Of a stretch of DNA of 64,000 nucleotides, positions 4,858-56,076 are shown one piece after another. Where the stretch lies: NCBI GenBank assembly GCA_015709205.1, contig JACCQO010000013.1:27719-91718 (forward strand), written 5' to 3'. The notes under the pieces were generated by a model, which saw nothing but the letters and a program-made list of their open reading frames with translations, was not told the origin of the DNA and did not search any database. How positions within the stretch are numbered: the stretch's first letter is position 1; each line of letters starts with the position of its first letter. The position numbers and the translations under genes were made by a program. The stretch is from Desulfovibrionaceae bacterium. Lineage in GTDB: Bacteria > Desulfobacterota > Desulfovibrionia > Desulfovibrionales > Desulfovibrionaceae.

Positions 4858-6246
4858 TCATGCGTCGCGGCGGCGCAGGCGGCTGTTCAGGGCCTGGGGC
4901 GTGATGCCCAGCAGGCGCGCCGCGGCGTTTTGCTTGCCGCCGCTGCGGGCCAGGGCTTCCTGCACCAGCTCCTCGGTGGCTTGCCTGATGGTCGGCAGGG
5001 GGGTGGCGTCGACGAAGTATCGGGAGGAGCGCCGGGCCTGGGGCGGCTCGCGCCTGAGGATCGTGTCGAAGACCGAGAGCGAGAGTCGGCCGGGTTCGCT
5101 GCGCACCACGGCGTCGAAGATCGTGCCGCGCAGCTCGCGGACGTTGCCCGGGAAGGGGTGGGCGGCCAGCTGGCCGAGGATATCGGGGGGGCAGGGGCCG
5201 ACCCGTTTCCGGAAGCAGGCCTCGGCCTGGTCCAGGAAGTGGCGGACCAGGGGGGGGATGTCCTCGGGCCGTTCGCGCAGGGGCGGAATGGCCAGGGAGT
5301 GGGTCGCCAGGCGGTAGTAGAAGTCGTTGCGGAAGCGTTCCTCCCGCAACAGCTTTCCCGGCGCGATGTTTGTGGCGGCGAGCACGCGGGCGGTCATGGG
5401 CCGGGGCCGGTCCGCGCCCAGGGGATGGTATTCGCGCTCCTGCAGCACGCGCAGCAGGCGGATCTGCGCCACCTGCGGCAGGTCCCCGATCTCGTCCAGG
5501 AACAGGGTGCCCCGGGCGGCCTGCTCGATCATGCCCTCGCGGCCGCCGGTGGCGCCGGTGAAGGCGCCCTTGGTGTGCCCGAAGAGCGTGTCGGAAAAGG
5601 CGTGCTCGTCCAGCCCGGCCACGTTGACGGCCACAAAGGGGCCGGGCAGGCCGCTGACGCGGTGGATGGCCCGGGCGAGGATCTCCTTGCCCACGCCGGT
5701 TTCGCCGGTGATGAGCACGGGCTCGGACCCGGCGGCCACGGCTTCGCAGTAGGCGAAGATGCGCAGGATGCGGGGGCAGACCGTTACGAACGCGTCGAAG
5801 GCCTCGGGATGGCGGGGGCCTTCGGAGAGAAAGCCGCGGGCCAGGGAGCGGTGCTCGCGGCGCATGTCCTGCACGTCCAGGGCCCGGCGCAGGGCCAGGT
5901 CCAGCAAGGCGGAGTCCTGCAGGGGCTTGGTCAGGAAGTCGCTGGCCCCGTGGCGCAGGGCGCGGATCACGTCCTGCATGTCGCCCGCGCCGGAGATGAT
6001 CAGCACCGGCGTGTCCGGGGACCGCTCCTTGACGGCCGCCAGGACCTGGTGGCCGTCGATGTCCTTCATGCGCAGGTCCACGAGCACGGCGTCGGGCCGC
6101 TCGCGGGCGAAGATGTCGAGCCCCTCCGCGCCGCCGCGGGCCTCCAGCACGTTGTAGCCGAAGTCGCGCAGGCAGTCGCCCATGGTCACGCAGGCGAATT
6201 GGTCGTCGTCGATGAGCAGCACGGTGGGGGTGGGTGTTACGGACAT
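4858..6246 (-). CDS. Sigma-54-dependent response regulator (receiver, AAA+, Fis-type HTH)
   Basis: A 462-residue NtrC-family activator. The receiver domain (1-125) has the acidic pair in LLIDDDQF, the phospho-acceptor Asp in AVLVDLRMKDIDG and the Lys in LTKP. The AAA+ domain (about 150-380) has Walker A GETGVGKE, the sigma-54 contact loop GAFTGA and Walker B LFLDEIGD. A C-terminal Fis-type helix-turn-helix (GKQNAAARLLGITPQALNSRLRRR) binds DNA. No partner kinase is adjacent; the hybrid kinase divergently encoded at 6708 is a candidate. The genes that follow on the same strand (HD-GYP, cheW, mcp) are a likely target because a TGGCAC element and repeated sites lie between them. Confidence 0.95.
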   Translation of the reverse strand: MSVTPTPTVLLIDDDQFACVTMGDCLRDFGYNVLEARGGAEGLDIFARERPDAVLVDLRMKDIDGHQVLAAVKERSPDTPVLIISGAGDMQDVIRALRHGASDFLTKPLQDSALLDLALRRALDVQDMRREHRSLARGFLSEGPRHPEAFDAFVTVCPRILRIFAYCEAVAAGSEPVLITGETGVGKEILARAIHRVSGLPGPFVAVNVAGLDEHAFSDTLFGHTKGAFTGATGGREGMIEQAARGTLFLDEIGDLPQVAQIRLLRVLQEREYHPLGADRPRPMTARVLAATNIAPGKLLREERFRNDFYYRLATHSLAIPPLRERPEDIPPLVRHFLDQAEACFRKRVGPCPPDILGQLAAHPFPGNVRELRGTIFDAVVRSEPGRLSLSVFDTILRREPPQARRSSRYFVDATPLPTIRQATEELVQEALARSGGKQNAAARLLGITPQALNSRLRRRDA

Positions 6247-6707
6247 ATCTTCTCTGACTCAAGGCCCGGCGCGGACGGGAGCCTTCGTTGCGGACCCGGC
6301 CCGTGGCACGGCAACTACCGCGTTCCGAGGAGGCCGGGTGCCCCTTCCGCGGGAACTCTTCCGTCGGGTGCGGGACCCCTTCGGGGCTTTTGTGTACAAC
6401 TGTTGAAGGAATTTTAGGTTATCAATGGGAAAGAGGGAAGTGGCAAGAGGGCTTTTTTTTGCCGGAGCGGGTGGTTATCTTGTTTTTCCAGTCGGGTGCC
6501 ACGCGGCACGGCCTGTTGGGCGGTGGCGTGCCGGCTCTGTTTTCCGGCTGTTCGTTCGGCCTTCTCCCGGATGCTGCGGATATTTTTTCATCCCGAAGCG
6601 CCGAAAGGCGGGTCTTCACTTGAAAGGACGCGCGGCGCAGGGTATTCCGATAGACTGGGCCGAGAAGCGCGTTCAGGTGCAGTTCACGGCGAAAGCGGGC
6701 GGAGGCC
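6247..6707. other. Intergenic region between divergent regulator and hybrid kinase
   Basis: About 460 bases with no supportable gene. It must hold the promoters of both flanking genes. The right end has the GGAGG ribosome binding site of the hybrid kinase. I see no clear sigma-70 or sigma-54 element or operator. Confidence 0.5.
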
Positions 6708-8996
6708 ATGCTGGAATACAGGAACATACAAACCCAGCTCAACTCGGTTGCGCGCGTGGTCGCCTGCGAGTTGGAACGGGTCGAGGATTCGCTGTGTTAC
6801 CTTGAATCGCTCACGAAAAAGCTGCTCCACGAGGCCGAACCCGACGCCGGGTCTATCGACGCCTGGCTCCGCGACCAGGGCTTCGCCGTGGGGGAGGACG
6901 GCTTTTTCCTGAGCATTCCCCAGCTGCGGCAATTCCGGGAAGGCCGGCTGGCGGAGGAGACCGTCAGCTACTCCTGGCCTTCGGACAGAACGGACGACCC
7001 GGACGCCAGGCTCCGCCTCTACCGCCACCGCAACATCGCGTGCATCCTGCGCACGCTGCACGCCAGGCTGCCCGGGGCGGCCTGGATCTACTACCAGGAC
7101 GTCACCAACACGGCGCTGCAGTATCCGTACATCGATCAGATAACGGCCATTCCCCCCGATTTCGACTGGTCCGCCTACCACACGTATCTTTCCGTCGCCC
7201 CCGACGCGAATCCGGCCAGGGAGATCCGCTGGTCCGCGCCGCACGCCGATTACGCCGGCCAGGGGCTCATCGTAGCCGCGTCGATACCCGTGTACGTCCG
7301 GGACGTCTTCACTGGCTTGTGGAGCATCGACGTCAAGGTCGACAGCATGGTCCGTAGCGAGGTCCTGGCCTCGAGCTACAAGACGCAATACACCTGCATC
7401 GTCGAAAAGGGCGGCAGGCTGATATCCGGCAGCGATGGCATGACGACGAGGCCCCTGGCCAGAGGTGAAGTGGCCCTCGTGGACTTCCGCGATGCCCATC
7501 CGGCCTTTAGCGCCGTCGATCTCGAGGCCGGCTTCAGGGCCGGCCATGGCTACCGCACCGTGGAGGCCAAGGGCGAGAGCTTCCAGGTCCATTGGTCGAA
7601 GATCGGAACCACGGACTGGATGTGCGTCGCGGCCATAGCGGCCGGCGACCTTACGAGCACCGCGAAAAGGGTCTTGCAGAACGCCTTCAAGCGTCTCGGC
7701 AAGGGGTTCGACGACCTGCTGATAGAGGTCGACGATTTTCCCGAAGAGATGCTCGAGCTCGCCAGGGCGTACAACGACACGGCCGTGAAGCTGAAAAGGG
7801 CGCACACCAGGCTGCTGCGCAAGAACGCGGAGCTGGAGCGGGAAAAGCGCAGGGCCGAGGCGGCGAACAGGGCGAAATCCATCTTCCTGGCCAACATGAG
7901 CCATGAGCTGCGCACGCCCCTCAACGGCATCATGGGCATGCACCAGTTGCTCAAGACCACGCCGCTGGACAGGGAGCAGGAGGAGTACATCGATCTCGCG
8001 ATGGAGTCGGCCCGGCGGCTGACCGGGCTGCTCGGCGACATCCTGGACCTGACCAGGATCGAGGCCGGCAAATTCAACATCGTGCGCAAGCGGTTCGAAG
8101 TGGCGGAACTGATGCGCTCCGTTGAACAGCTTTTCGGCCTGCCGTGCCGGCAAAAGGGGCTGGACCTCGAACTGAACGTGGACAGCGGCGTTCCGCGCGT
8201 GCTCGTCGGCGATGCCCTGCGGCTGAGCCAGGTCATCCACAACCTGGTGGGCAACGCCGTCAAGTTCACCGACCGCGGCGGGATCCGGCTGGAGGTCTCC
8301 GCGCTGCCGAGCGATTCCCCGGATGTGGCCTGGGTGCTCTTCTCCGTGACCGACACGGGCATCGGCATCGCGCGGGACAAGGTGCGGGAGCTCTTCGAGG
8401 CCTTCACGCAGGGGGACGAGGGGTTGAGCCGCTCCCACCAGGGCGCCGGGCTCGGCCTGGCCATCGTGCGCCGGCTCGTCGATCTCATGGGCGGGGAAAT
8501 GGAGATCGAAAGCGAACCGGGCCTGGGCGCGTCGTTTCGGTTTCGCCTGCCGTTCGGGCGTCGCGGCGACGGCGCCGACGAGCCTGTCGCCGCTTCGCCC
8601 CGGCCTTCCCCTGCGCCCGGACCGCGCGCCGTCCTCCTGGTCGAGGACGATGCGGTCAACAGGATGGCCGTCAGGACGCTTCTCGAAAAGGCCGGGTACC
8701 GCGCGGTGGCGGCGGCCAACGGCGAGGAGGCGCTGCGTGAACTCGGCAGCGGGTACTACGATCTGATCCTGATGGACATCCAGATGCCGGTCATGGACGG
8801 CGTGGAGGCGACCAGGGCGATCCGGGCCGGGCGGGCCGGAGCCGACAAGCGGGCGATTCCCATCATCGCGCTGACGGCCTACGCCATGGCCGGCGACAGG
8901 GAGGCCTTCATTGCGGCCGGGATCGACGACTATCTCGCCAAGCCCGTGGAAGCCGACCGCCTGATGGCCGTGATCGACGAATTGTTGGCGCGGTGA
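6708..8996 (+). CDS. Hybrid sensor histidine kinase with C-terminal receiver domain
   Basis: A 762-residue hybrid kinase. The first ~330 residues are a sensor region with the layout of a double Cache domain but without a convincing membrane helix, so the protein may be cytoplasmic or peripherally held. A helical linker (about 350-390) leads to HisKA with [16 protein letters not shown] (phospho-acceptor His), then HATPase_c with [19 protein letters not shown] and GAGLGLAIV. The receiver at the end has LLVEDDAVN, the Asp in [13 protein letters not shown] and the Lys in YLAKP. ATG at 6708 follows GCGGAGGCC. A GC-rich hairpin follows the stop. There is no HPt domain, so a separate phosphotransfer protein or the regulator at 4858 must receive the signal. 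Confidence 0.94.
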
Positions 8997-9015
8997 ACCG
9001 GACGGCGGGCGCGAG

Positions 9016-9043
9016 AAGGGCCCCGGAGCGATCCGGGGCCCTT
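9016..9043 (+). terminator. Rho-independent type hairpin after the hybrid kinase
   Basis: A perfect 12-bp stem AAGGGCCCCGGA / TCCGGGGCCCTT with loop GCGA, starting 20 bases after the stop and followed by a short T-containing tail. It lies before the convergent small gene at 9094 and may serve both strands. Confidence 0.7.
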
Positions 9044-27490: not shown

Positions 27491-27817
27491 GGTGACTCCT
27501 CATGCAGGCCGCGCCCGCATAACGTTTTTTCGTCTTGGCTATGACAGCCTCCTTGGGTTTGTTTACGTGCCCCATGACCAGCGGTCCAGTTCCCCGAGGC
27601 CACTTCCTTTTCCCCCTTGTCGTGGAGGCCTCAGCGAAGCGAGAGGGATTGGGCGCCTCATCGGCGGCTCCCCTTCCTGCTTGCGGGGGGCGACTCGCGA
27701 CACCGTCTCTGGGTTCTTCGATGGAGAATTGCTCATGAATGTCAACGAGGTGCTCGGCGGGAATTGGCGTGAAGACCGCGTACCGGGGCAGCTAAAAAGA
27801 GCTGGCGGACCCAAAGA

Positions 27818-27868
27818 AAGGGCCTTGGGAGTTCTCCCGGGCCCTTGTCCTTTCTGGCGGAGCCGACG
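27818..27868. repeat. tRNA-Asp 3'-end scar with terminator hairpin, copy 1
   Basis: A hairpin (AAGGGCCTTGGGAG ... CTCCCGGGCCCTT) is followed by CCTTTC and TGGCGGAGCCGACG (27855-27868). The last 14 bases equal the 3' end of the intact tRNA-Asp at 56000-56013 in the same orientation, and the preceding bases parallel its terminator. After base 27868 similarity stops. This looks like a displaced tRNA 3' end left by site-specific integration. Confidence 0.65.
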
Positions 27869-36274: not shown

Positions 36275-36346
36275 GGGGCTCGGGAAATTCATCCCGAGTC
36301 CCTGATTTCTCTGACGGAGCCGACGATCTGAACTGCGGCCTCCGGC
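36275..36346. repeat. tRNA-Asp 3'-end scar with terminator hairpin, copy 2 (left flank of cassette)
   Basis: A hairpin (GGGGCTCGGGA / TCCCGAGTCCC, 36275-36302) is followed by TGACGGAGCCGACGA at 36312 and, after a small gap, GCGGCCTCCGGC to 36346. This aligns with ~38 bases of the 3' half of tRNA-Asp (56000-56037), with one substitution and a few indels, in the same orientation. It lies just left of the low-GC cassette. Confidence 0.75.
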
Positions 36347-36439
36347 TGGGCTAGGCATGGCGGCGTGCGCACAGGCATGGGCTGGAGCGAAAGTTCCGGC
36401 CCTTTCCTTTTCGTCTCTTGGCTTTTTATAGACGGGGGA

Positions 36440-36464
36440 GTATGTTAACAGCAAATGAACATAC
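36440..36464. promoter_or_regulatory. Inverted repeat across the mrr start codon
   Basis: GTATGTT (36440-36446) and AACATAC (36458-36464) form perfect 7-base arms around 11 bases. The ATG of mrr (36455) lies within the loop/right arm, 14 bases after GGGGGAG. Either an RNA hairpin hiding the start or a protein operator could result. Confidence 0.5.
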
Positions 36465-37296
36465 CTCAATACCACGAAATGATGATTCCCACGATCAAGG
36501 TCATAGATGAGCTTGGGGGATCAGGAACCATCCAAGAAATTGCCGAAGGAGTACAACTGCTTCTCAACCTTCCAGAAGATGCGACTTCCCGCCCTCACAA
36601 CCCCGAGAAGTCCAGCCGGACCGAAGTTGAGTATCGTCTTGCTTGGGCCAGAACCTACCTCAAAAAGGTTGGGCTGATTGAGAACTCCGAACGAGGAGTC
36701 TGGTCATTTACCGACAGGTACCGGCGTGGGATGAAACTCGACGCTGAAGAGATCGTTCGAACGGTTCGGGGGCTGACCAAGCACTCGAAGAAGAAGGCGA
36801 TATCGACGATGCTCCTGAAGCCATCCCTGAAACGGGTGACTGGCGAGGGGGCATTCACCAGACAGTTCTAGCCCTTGATCCGGGTGCGTTTGAACGCCTG
36901 ACAAAGCGCATCCTCCGTGAGATCGGCTTCGCTCAAGTTGAAGCCACCGGACAATCCGGTGATGGTGGTACTGGCGGAAAGGGAATCGTGAAGATTCAGG
37001 ATGTCCTGAGCTACCATGTTGTCTTCCAGTGCAAACGCTACAAAGGTTCAGTAGGGCCGGGAGCAATCCGAGATTTCAGAGGTGCCATGGTCGGCAGAGC
37101 AGACAAAGGATTGTTCATCACCACGGGGACCTTTACACGCGAAGCGACCAAAGAGGCTACACGAGATGGCGCCTCACCGATTGACTTGATTGATGGTGAT
37201 GATCTCGTTGAAACGCTTAAGAAGCTTCGGCTCGGTGTGAATGTTCGGCTGGCCGAAGATGTTGAAATCGATGGCCAGTGGTTTGAGAATATTTAG
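36455..37296 (+). pseudogene. mrr: Mrr-type restriction endonuclease, interrupted by a frameshift
   Basis: Two adjoining frames together make one Mrr protein of ~280 residues. The first (from ATG 36455) encodes the N-terminal winged-helix domain (YHEMMIPTIKVIDELGGSGTIQEI). The second (in frame to 37296) encodes the PD-(D/E)XK nuclease: ALDPGAFERLTKRILREIGF, the catalytic SGDGG, and VFQCKRYKG with the Q-x-K pair, ending GLFITTGTFTREA. Frames switch by -1 somewhere between the stop at 36745 of the second frame and the stop at 36871 of the first; a five-G run at about 36769-36773 is a likely slip site. The catalytic half is intact. It may be a pseudogene, a phase-variable gene or a sequencing error. 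Mrr enzymes cut modified DNA. Confidence 0.85.
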
Positions 37297-37316
37297 TCAA
37301 GATTGGGAGGATTGTT

Positions 37317-38174
37317 TTGAACTGCTTTGAAATTGCCAAAAAAGTCCTTGACCGCTCCTTTGCAAAAATTGAAGGGAGTCAAGAAGAAAAGGTTAAATTG
37401 ATTAACAAAAGAATCAGTGAGCTACAAACTGCTTACGGAAATCTCGACCAAAAAGACGGGGTAGACTACTCAGACCCGATTACGCAGTTCGCATACATCT
37501 ACAAGTACACCACTGCCCATGCCAGCTATGTTTGCACCTTGATGGAAAAGGCAGACAGAAAAGACGCGTTACCTACTGAGGGCAAAATTAAATTAGCCAG
37601 CATTGGTGGCGGTCCTGGAAGCGATTTCCTGGGGTTCCTGAAGTTTTATAACTCCTCATGTTATTCAGGCATCTCGGCAATATCAAATAGCTTCGACAAA
37701 GATAGCGACTGGAGTTATTGCTGGTCAAAAGTCTTTGAAGAAGCACGAGAGTGCACTGAAGGAGAGGAGGCTTGCTCAAGTCTCTCAACAAATTTCCATA
37801 TCCTTGATGTCTGTGATCCGAAGTCGACCCAACGAATCGATGACTACACTGACTCTGATATTTTCACGATGATCTATTTCATGTCTGAAGTGTATCAATT
37901 CAGAGACAAGGTCGCCCCGTTCTTTACATATCTCTTTTCGAACATTAGAAAAGGTGCAACGGTCCTCTTTATTGACAACAAAACAGATCGATATCGAGAA
38001 TGGTTTGATTTCTTCGTTGGTGCTAATGGTTATGAAGTCTTGATTTCTGGTGAAGATAGATGGGTTCCTTCATTTGACGAGCAAAAAGCCGTTTTGGGAG
38101 AATATCTCACACTCCTTAAGCAAAACCCGAAATTGCAAGGTGATATTGCATACCGCGTAGTAAGAAAGATGTGA
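37317..38174 (+). CDS. Class I SAM-dependent methyltransferase-fold protein
   Basis: A 285-residue protein starting at TTG, with GGGAGG eight bases upstream. A helical N-terminal domain (1-85) precedes the SAM-binding motif I, KLASIGGGPGSDFLGF (residues about 92-107). An acidic strand end FHILDVCDP and a DIFTMIYFMSEVY strand fit a Rossmann-like methyltransferase. No DNA-methylase catalytic motif (D/N-PP-Y) is visible, so DNA methylation is not supported. It begins 20 bases after mrr and overlaps the DUF1848 gene start by at most 4 bases, so all three are probably one transcript. Base composition is far more AT-rich than the surroundings. I do not recognise the specific family. Confidence 0.75.
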   Translation: MNCFEIAKKVLDRSFAKIEGSQEEKVKLINKRISELQTAYGNLDQKDGVDYSDPITQFAYIYKYTTAHASYVCTLMEKADRKDALPTEGKIKLASIGGGPGSDFLGFLKFYNSSCYSGISAISNSFDKDSDWSYCWSKVFEEARECTEGEEACSSLSTNFHILDVCDPKSTQRIDDYTDSDIFTMIYFMSEVYQFRDKVAPFFTYLFSNIRKGATVLFIDNKTDRYREWFDFFVGANGYEVLISGEDRWVPSFDEQKAVLGEYLTLLKQNPKLQGDIAYRVVRKM

Positions 38175-38176
38175 CC

Positions 38177-39181
38177 ATGAAATGGAAATCTGCATTGATC
38201 GACTCCGCCAATGGGATGGTTGAAGGAATTGCCCCAGAAATTATCTCAGCAAGCCGGTCAACCGACATTCCCGCCTTTTACTCTGAGTGGTTTTTCAATC
38301 GCCTTGAGGCCGGCTATTCGAAATGGATCAATCCTTTTAATCAAAGAGCGCAGTTCATCTCGTTCGGAAATACACGAGTCGTGATATTTTGGAGTAAAAA
38401 CCCAAAGCCGTTACTGCCTTACCTCCATATTCTCGACGAAAAACGAATCGGGTACTACGTCCAATTCACCGTGAATGATTACGAGGAGGAGGGCTTGGAG
38501 CCCAGCGTCCCTCCGTTGGCTTCAAGAATTGAAACATTTAGAACTCTATCTGACCAGCTAGGACCGGACAGAGTTATATGGCGATTTGACCCGTTAATTC
38601 TTACCGATTCAATCACTCCGGAAAAGCTCCTGAACAAGGTCAAAAAAGTCGGGAGCCTCTTGTCAGGGCATACGTCAAAACTCGTTTTCAGTTTTGCAGA
38701 TGTTTGCAACTATAAAAAAGTCCAAAACAATTTAAGACGGAAAAACATCACCCATAGAGATTTCACATTGCCAGAGATTGAGTTTCTCTCATCAGAAATC
38801 TCTAATTTCTGCTTTGGATGGGGAATACAAGTATTTACTTGTGGTGAGAGTGTCGATCTTTCCGAATTTGGAATTCATCACAACAAGTGCATTGATGACA
38901 AGCTTATCTTGAAGATCACCAGCAACCATCCTGACATCCTTAGACTGTTCGGCATTGATTCCACTGCCCAGCTGAGCTTATTGGAGTCTAAGGAGAAGAA
39001 AATTAGCTTGAAAGACACCGGGCAAAGAGATGAGTGCGGTTGTGTGATTAGCAAGGATGTCGGACAATACAACACATGCCCACACAGATGCGTATATTGC
39101 TATGCAAACACATCAGACTACATTGTAACTAAAAACGTCAAAGCTTTTACTCCGGACGGTGAATCCATCATTCCTGGCTAA
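38177..39181 (+). CDS. DUF1848 family protein with CX3CX2C (radical-SAM-like) cluster motif
   Basis: A 334-residue protein of the DUF1848 family: ISASRSTDIPAFYSEWFFNRLEAGY near the N-terminus, VIFWSKNPKPLLPYL, and the C-terminal TCPHRCVYCYAN in which Cys301, Cys305 and Cys308 form CX3CX2C as in radical-SAM enzymes. DUF1848 is uncharacterised; its cluster sits at the C-terminus, opposite to normal radical-SAM proteins. I use ATG 38177; a GTG at 38171 overlapping the previous stop is also possible. It pairs with the methyltransferase-fold gene in the cassette, suggesting a joint modification activity. That role is inferred. Confidence 0.85.
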   Translation: MKWKSALIDSANGMVEGIAPEIISASRSTDIPAFYSEWFFNRLEAGYSKWINPFNQRAQFISFGNTRVVIFWSKNPKPLLPYLHILDEKRIGYYVQFTVNDYEEEGLEPSVPPLASRIETFRTLSDQLGPDRVIWRFDPLILTDSITPEKLLNKVKKVGSLLSGHTSKLVFSFADVCNYKKVQNNLRRKNITHRDFTLPEIEFLSSEISNFCFGWGIQVFTCGESVDLSEFGIHHNKCIDDKLILKITSNHPDILRLFGIDSTAQLSLLESKEKKISLKDTGQRDECGCVISKDVGQYNTCPHRCVYCYANTSDYIVTKNVKAFTPDGESIIPG

Positions 39182-40024
39182 AATCCGACCCATCCCACTT
39201 CCCAAGCCAACCCAGGCGGTAAGCACATGGCTGGAAGCCGTGGCAAAAATGGGCTTTCCAACCCTGTGCGATTGCTACCTGAAAATAAGCCTGTGTCCGA
39301 GGGGTGTGTCCTGCGGTCTACGAACGTTGAAAATGAATAAGGGTCTTAACCTAACAGGCTAAGACCCTTGTTCTTTCCGGCGGAGCGAAGCGACTCGAAC
39401 TCGCGGCCTTCGGCGTGTCAGGTAACAGATAAGAAAAGAAGGTGCCGTAGTGTGAGTTAAAAAAAAGATTTATTTGGCACATAATCTATTCATGAGACTG
39501 CATTTTGAGACATTCCAATATGGGAAATGGTTCTGTTGTGGTTCTTTCCGATAGGCGTGAGGCGGCGAGCATGTTCGATGGCGTTCGCATTGCCTTCGTC
39601 TATGACGACACGCTGCAGGCGGCAGCCGATTTTCATGTGGTCAAAGCAAAAAATGCCCCGGTTTTTCGAGGACACAGACAGGCCATGGGCGCATCACCCG
39701 GATATCAGGAGGGGACGCGGGAAGGAGTTGGCCCCTCAACAGGGTTAATCGTCCATGCTTTCGGACGGAATTCCGTGATGGCGGTATCGCCGTTCGTGTG
39801 CATGGCCGGAGGGTAAAAAAGGCAATCTGCCTTTCTTCGCCGCCATCTTGCCTGCGGGACGCGGCCCGGAAGACACGCCGCGGCACCAGTCGCGCATGCC
39901 CGCGCCCCGAGGCGCTCCTGCGCGCGGACAGCGAGGACGCCGCGCAGGACGCCGCCCGCCCCGGTTTTGCCGAAGCGGGCGGCGCGTGCGAAGACGCCGG
40001 CGTCCCGTTCGAGGGGCAATGGCG
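39182..40024. other. Intergenic region with right-flank tRNA-Asp scar
   Basis: About 840 bases without a supportable gene. It contains the hairpin and tRNA-Asp-like copy at 39339-39422 and an AT-rich patch at 39425-39500. A frame of 103 codons at 39505-39816 has no recognisable similarity and no ribosome binding site. Confidence 0.5.
39339..39422. repeat. tRNA-Asp 3'-half scar with terminator hairpin, copy 3 (right flank of cassette)
   Basis: A hairpin AAGGGTCTTA / TAAGACCCTT (39339-39369) is followed by GTTCTTTC and then ~47 bases resembling tRNA-Asp from its 3' end to the anticodon loop. CGACTCGAACTCGCGGCCTT is nearly identical to the T-arm and variable region, followed by CGGCGTGTCAGG. 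It has the same orientation as the copies at 27855 and 36312 and the intact gene at 56000. Similarity stops at 39422. Confidence 0.8.

Positions 40025-55999: not shown

Positions 56000-56076
<77 letters not shown>

Follow-up and report, generated by a model that had tools for sequence, protein, structure and literature searches.

A METTL17/Rsm22-like methyltransferase-fold gene and a DUF1848 gene form a recurrent pair that may belong to a mobile nucleic-acid-modifying module

The 64,000-nucleotide stretch analysed here (the window), from contig JACCQO010000013.1 of a Desulfovibrionaceae bacterium (positions 27,719 to 91,718), carries two overlapping genes whose relatives are repeatedly found as neighbours in distant bacteria and in virus-type sequences. 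The first gene, the core of the pair, encodes P0001, a 285 amino acid protein (37317-38174, plus strand, TTG start codon) with a METTL17/Rsm22-like S-adenosylmethionine (SAM) methyltransferase fold. The second shares four bases with the first and encodes P0002, a 336 amino acid DUF1848 protein (38171-39181, plus strand). We tentatively propose that P0001 and P0002 work together in a horizontally transferred module, as two subunits or as enzymes acting in succession, and that this module modifies a nucleic acid in the context of phage defence, its target being more probably RNA than DNA, although taken as a whole this statement is in our judgement slightly more apt to fail than to hold. An initial annotation had combined the two proteins with an Mrr nuclease encoded next to them. 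The neighbourhoods of related genes indicate instead that the unit consists of a methyltransferase-fold protein and an oxidising or radical enzyme, and that Mrr is incidental here. Like that annotation, we infer a modification pair with a defence role.

There are 99 DUF1848 loci in our collection, and removal of the repeats L129, L134 and L150 leaves 96 places, among which near-copies such as L162/L163 were kept. A methyltransferase-fold gene, called with four profile groups at E values up to 1e-4, lies in the flank of 20 of these places, one of them doubtful (the match in L160, an odd overlapping open reading frame (ORF) close to the end of a contig, may be spurious). One further gene appeared when the flank of L126 was widened (the widened locus being L188). 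The partner directly adjoins DUF1848 in 16 of the 20 places, and in L008, L107 and L166 a helicase gene and a gene for a protein of 656-807 amino acids stand between the two. DUF1848 is common in the window's phylum, with matches in 80 of 297 genomes (above the cut-off in 76), and a methyltransferase-fold gene lies beside it in G352, G272 and G354 (gaps of 0, 16 and 3, respectively). A genome from the window genome's own family (G087) has genes for a methyltransferase-fold protein, a helicase, a 656 amino acid protein and DUF1848 on one strand and in the same order. A scan of viral contigs for DUF1848 (32 loci) yielded L166, whose four-gene order is that of L008 and L107, as well as L173, L174, L176 and L162/L163. 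The settings of related loci include plasmids and phage-type contigs, and the expectation of the initial annotation that homologues of the two genes would be neighbours in other genomes was borne out well beyond the window genome.

A tree was built from the 97 DUF1848 ORFs of the 99 loci that passed length and E-value limits, and removal of seven repeats or near-copies left 90 rows. Paired rows occur in three distant parts of this tree, and their distribution requires 14 changes (no fewer than 10), compared with a mean of 17.6 in shuffles, of which 5 in 500 were as low as 14. The pairing is somewhat clustered, and has either come together on more than one occasion or suffered many losses. A separate clade of DUF1848 proteins (L127, L130-L133, L135-L149 and L151-L155) has a divergent start of the INTGSRTD type. 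These loci come mostly from genomes of about 2 Mb in the cyanobacterial phylum and lack a methyltransferase-fold gene in their flanks of 1.5 kb; as a guess, their hosts may be non-photosynthetic lineages.

In the cyanobacterial phylum, the same methyltransferase-fold family is also adjoined by AlkB (PF13532). Each of three Nostoc homologues of P0001 (37-38%) has a divergent AlkB gene next to it, and a Planktothrix plasmid carries DUF1848, a P0001 relative and AlkB together. P0001-family matches occur in 13 of 339 genomes of this phylum, at 14 places, of which 12 are adjoined by AlkB, 3 by DUF1848 and 1 by neither. A distant P0001 homologue (L057 of G563) has a flank without AlkB or DUF1848. 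The cassette copy is the sole AlkB of G527, G545 and G629. A further twelve genomes of the phylum comprise seven with a single AlkB, which is the cassette copy in six, G637 with two, both in cassettes, and four with 4 to 16. No PF13532 match was found in the window genome or in four pair-bearing genomes of its phylum (0 of 5), in a search with three positive controls. The window genome does have a dsrA match above its cut-off, from which we guess at a sulfate reducer of the Desulfobacterota type. AlkB-bearing members of the cyanobacterial phylum are presumed to be oxygenic, and we take AlkB, which needs oxygen, to be unrelated to DUF1848 in fold and chemistry. In L054, a gene for an 1180 amino acid UvrD-like helicase (5489-9031) directly follows the methyltransferase-fold and AlkB genes.

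The methyltransferase fold that had been ascribed to the 285-residue protein is firm by model and weak by sequence, where P0001 gives only a PF11312 match below the cut-off (E 7e-4). The predicted structure has the N-terminal helices and SAM-methyltransferase domain of METTL17/Rsm22, and the nearest family is one that binds rRNA. Compared with that family (PF09243; human METTL17, yeast Rsm22), P0001 has no PF09243 match and lacks the cysteine stretch CX5-10CX3C of the METTL17 cluster type, its gene and that for DUF1848 form a pair enclosed by tRNA repeats, and P0001 retains a GGGPG motif resembling a SAM site. The cysteine stretch is present in 5 of 16 methyltransferase-fold proteins (L008, L099, L166, L087 and L173), and a sixth match to the pattern, in L009, overlaps motif I of that protein. 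A single-sequence search with P0001 matched 1 of 150 genomes, this being the window genome and not any of its 149 relatives; it also gave two relatives in plasmids, three in genome contigs and none in phages or viral contigs. The family alignment A1 likewise had no match in viral contigs, so the viral pairs were found only through DUF1848. In one homologue search, 8 of the 10 matches were larger proteins, and all six of those examined carry PF09243. Bacterial Rsm22 genes (PF09243) are present in genomes of the window's phylum (L023, L026-L030), some adjoining apparent rsmI or rsuA/rluB genes. No PADLOC model matched P0001 at E values up to 1.

P0002 matches the full PF08902 profile (303.4 bits against a cut-off of 30.5, E 2e-90), and the three cysteines of its C-terminal CX3CX2C motif (C303, C307 and C310) are invariant in one set of 25 sequences and in another of 14, in agreement with the DUF1848 and motif assignments made initially. 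We consider P0002 to be a predicted radical-SAM-type iron-sulfur enzyme that would bind a cluster and cleave SAM. An AlphaFold2 model of P0002 has a predicted local distance difference test (pLDDT) score of 93.1. Comparison of the barrel-like DUF1848 model appears to place radical-SAM entries on top (four rows, with Elp3, SkfB and sactipeptide enzyme entries), and a Foldseek search with DUF1848 had no radical-SAM row among its best 50. The Pfam Radical_SAM profile (PF04055) matches at the motif only, with 15.9 bits against a cut-off of 29.5, as do two ncbifam radical-SAM models that fall far below their cut-offs and that presumably resemble spore photoproduct lyase. Moreover, the motif follows the barrel strands rather than preceding them. 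A circular permutation of the barrel is suspected and is unproven, because the Radical_SAM match of reordered sequences from two DUF1848 homologues stayed confined to the motif (E 0.29 and 1.2).

Two known systems invite comparison. P0002 shares its DUF1848 domain with RTasDUF1848, the PADLOC model of an accessory of defence-associated reverse transcriptases (DRT; E 9e-42). No reverse transcriptase was named in the neighbour scans, among which no search was aimed at such enzymes. The initial annotation had likened the pair to TcmP/DUF5131 (Gp37/Gp68) while assigning it to different families, which is fair as a likeness: we take the shared plan to be a methyltransferase-fold protein with a cysteine-motif enzyme. 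However, the CX3CX2C of DUF1848 is near the C terminus, and scans of pfam and ncbifam at E values up to 1 placed neither P0001 nor P0002 in those families (the models being presumed present in these libraries).

Some pairs and DUF1848 genes adjoin defence genes, as had been anticipated. In L176 the pair is immediately preceded by type I hsdM, hsdS and hsdR genes, and L162 encodes type I-like restriction and Orf5 proteins upstream; DUF1848 adjoins type I genes in L086 and has AbiL genes nearby in L098. We claim no enrichment because the loci scanned for defence genes were chosen by eye, and the surroundings of other DUF1848 loci, among those listed, read as housekeeping genes. Small helicases of related loci match UvrD/Viral_helicase1 and GajB-type models. 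The 2CompART domain was found only in L099 and L188, and its assignment to the 656-807 amino acid proteins of L008, L107 and L166 was not borne out (hhalign probability 1.9). Several relatives have unusual architectures. A gut phage-type record (L009, 5413-9673) encodes an apparent trypsin-like protein (by reading), DUF1848 and an 880 amino acid fusion of a methyltransferase-like N terminus to a UvrD-type helicase, which matches the PADLOC NERD+UvrD model (E 2e-25). The methyltransferase-fold partner in L166 (2375-4483) has an extra N-terminal NERD domain (E 1e-8), and that in L173 (6566-7993) resembles RnlA_toxin in its extra N-terminal part, with a match (E 1e-5) slightly short of the cut-off.

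In the window, the AT-rich stretch that holds mrr pieces and the genes for P0001 and P0002 is flanked by two degenerate copies of a tRNA-Asp 3' end (36297-36346 and 39366-39422, both on the minus strand), as initially described. Their source is an intact tRNA-Asp (gtc) gene identified by ARAGORN at 56000-56076 on the minus strand. Local alignment to the 3' end of this gene and its flank gave scores of 50 and 84, where the best of 300 shuffles reached 25 and 23, and blastn aligned the right copy over 58 columns at 90%. We liken the copies to attachment sites because both extend 12-15 bases beyond the tRNA 3' end into the flank; the four ORFs scanned in the interval include no integrase. The guanine plus cytosine (GC) fraction is 0.42 for P0001, 0.44 for P0002 and 0.53 for the mrr pieces, with a mean of 0.646 over the kilobases of the window. 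The pair was probably acquired horizontally, and its difference from both the mrr pieces and the window fits separate arrivals. The earlier description of the stretch as much more AT-rich than the rest was nearly right, but the window also dips at 25-26 kb (0.489) and 53-56 kb (0.52-0.58). A third copy of the tRNA-Asp 3' end (27843-27868, 26 bp, score 47, best shuffle 25) lies near the first of these dips and perhaps marks another old insertion of the same kind.

The co-directional genes span 36455-39181, which agrees with the packing described before, except that mrr is not one intact gene. Its N-terminal piece (Mrr_N, PF14338, E 2e-17) is an ORF at 36455-36871 on the plus strand, where the frame ends. 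The catalytic piece occupies another open frame of the same strand at 36748-37296 (Mrr_cat, PF04471, E 2e-19 on 36988-37293). No single frame covers both domains, and the split reflects either a sequencing indel or a pseudogene. The pieces matched no ORF in the other neighbourhoods scanned (three sets of loci, part of the total). We therefore reject Mrr as a third member of the set, given its split frame, its different GC and this lack of matches; it may be the decayed remnant of a neighbouring gene that had integrated at the same site.

Perhaps P0001 binds a target and then methylates or presents it, and the substrate of P0002 would be the target's base or methyl group. AlkB, as an Fe(II)/2-oxoglutarate oxygenase, would perform the step of P0002 in cyanobacteria, sometimes beside DUF1848, and in subsets of loci the UvrD-like helicase and 2CompART domain might sense or execute the response. 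Family ties, the likeness to Elp3 and the presence of AlkB make us lean towards nucleic acid, and the likeness to METTL17 towards RNA. What the data show is that the genes adjoin, that partners are exchanged, that P0001 has this predicted fold, that the cysteines follow their pattern and that tRNA repeats flank the pair; the catalysis, the target, the exchange according to oxygen and the defence against phages are inferred from these. Several observations weigh against this proposal. There is no methyltransferase-fold gene in the flanks of 75 of the 96 DUF1848 places (flanks being unequal, with many of just 1.5 kb), so the domain is not tied to such a partner. DUF1848 was not found in the three Nostoc genomes, in a search where no control genome was positive, and G440 was negative again in a further search where 33 other genomes were positive. 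With AlkB beside the Nostoc homologues and most places unpaired, the pairing is looser than was first thought. G655 and G599 also speak against a simple oxygen rule, since both lack a PF13532 match although DUF1848 is paired there with a methyltransferase-fold gene. We nevertheless rank defence-type modification first, over repair or regulation, as part of the same tentative statement.

A somewhat unlikely alternative is a nucleic-acid repair cassette, in which AlkB and DUF1848 would each remove alkyl groups or photoproducts, the methyltransferase-fold protein would assist by binding RNA or DNA, and the nearby defence genes would be mere island neighbours. AlkB is a known dealkylase, its cassette copy is the sole PF13532 copy in several genomes, and the motif-only matches of P0002 include the presumed photoproduct lyase likeness. 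Repair sits poorly with the spotty distribution, exemplified by the single genome in 150 matched by P0001, and with plasmid and phage-type settings that in part include restriction genes or helicase and 2CompART partners. Quite unlikely is a toxin-antitoxin-like arrangement, wherein host RNA would receive a mark from the methyltransferase-fold protein or the ADP-ribosyltransferase, which AlkB or DUF1848 would erase until phage infection. Close pairing with enzymes of a kind that can undo methylation, the exchange of partners and the RnlA_toxin-like stretch of L173 would suit it, but L057 has neither enzyme in its flank and most DUF1848 places have no methyltransferase-fold gene.

We give still less credence to maturation of a peptide or small molecule by a methyltransferase and a radical-SAM enzyme, as in pathways for ribosomally synthesised and post-translationally modified peptides (RiPPs). 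Of the four radical-SAM rows, those for SkfB and the sactipeptide enzyme represent RiPP maturases. However, P0001 is nearest to an rRNA-binding family, and no recurrent precursor peptide or transporter was noticed among the loci listed, where short ORFs were unlisted and no search was aimed at them. Least probable of all is a single modification-restriction system in which the pair modifies DNA and Mrr cuts it, since the co-directional packing and the restriction genes beside some related pairs are outweighed by the evidence that removes mrr from the set.

Pfam names DUF1848 a domain of unknown function. Among openly licensed PubMed Central papers, neither 'DUF1848' nor 'PF08902' was found (a description elsewhere is possible), nor was 'DUF5131', and '2CompART' gave nothing relevant among the matches listed; that Pfam has an entry named 2CompART hints that part of the set was noticed earlier. 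The neighbourhoods supply DUF1848 with a recurrent partner and a natural comparison in AlkB, which makes its chemistry testable. In a bolder version of our proposal, which we think unlikely, DUF1848 would be the oxygen-independent radical-SAM counterpart of AlkB and would, with the METTL17/Rsm22-like protein, edit methyl groups or bases of ribosomal or other RNA in an undescribed anti-phage system. The oxidising subunit would be swapped according to oxygen (AlkB in its presence, DUF1848 in its absence, and the two together in some cyanobacteria), with helicase and ADP-ribosyltransferase effectors added. If the swap is true, an oxygen-dependent and an oxygen-independent enzyme would serve one nucleic-acid editing step. 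If the module is indeed one of defence, its methyltransferase-fold core, P0001, would lie outside every model of the PADLOC version used.
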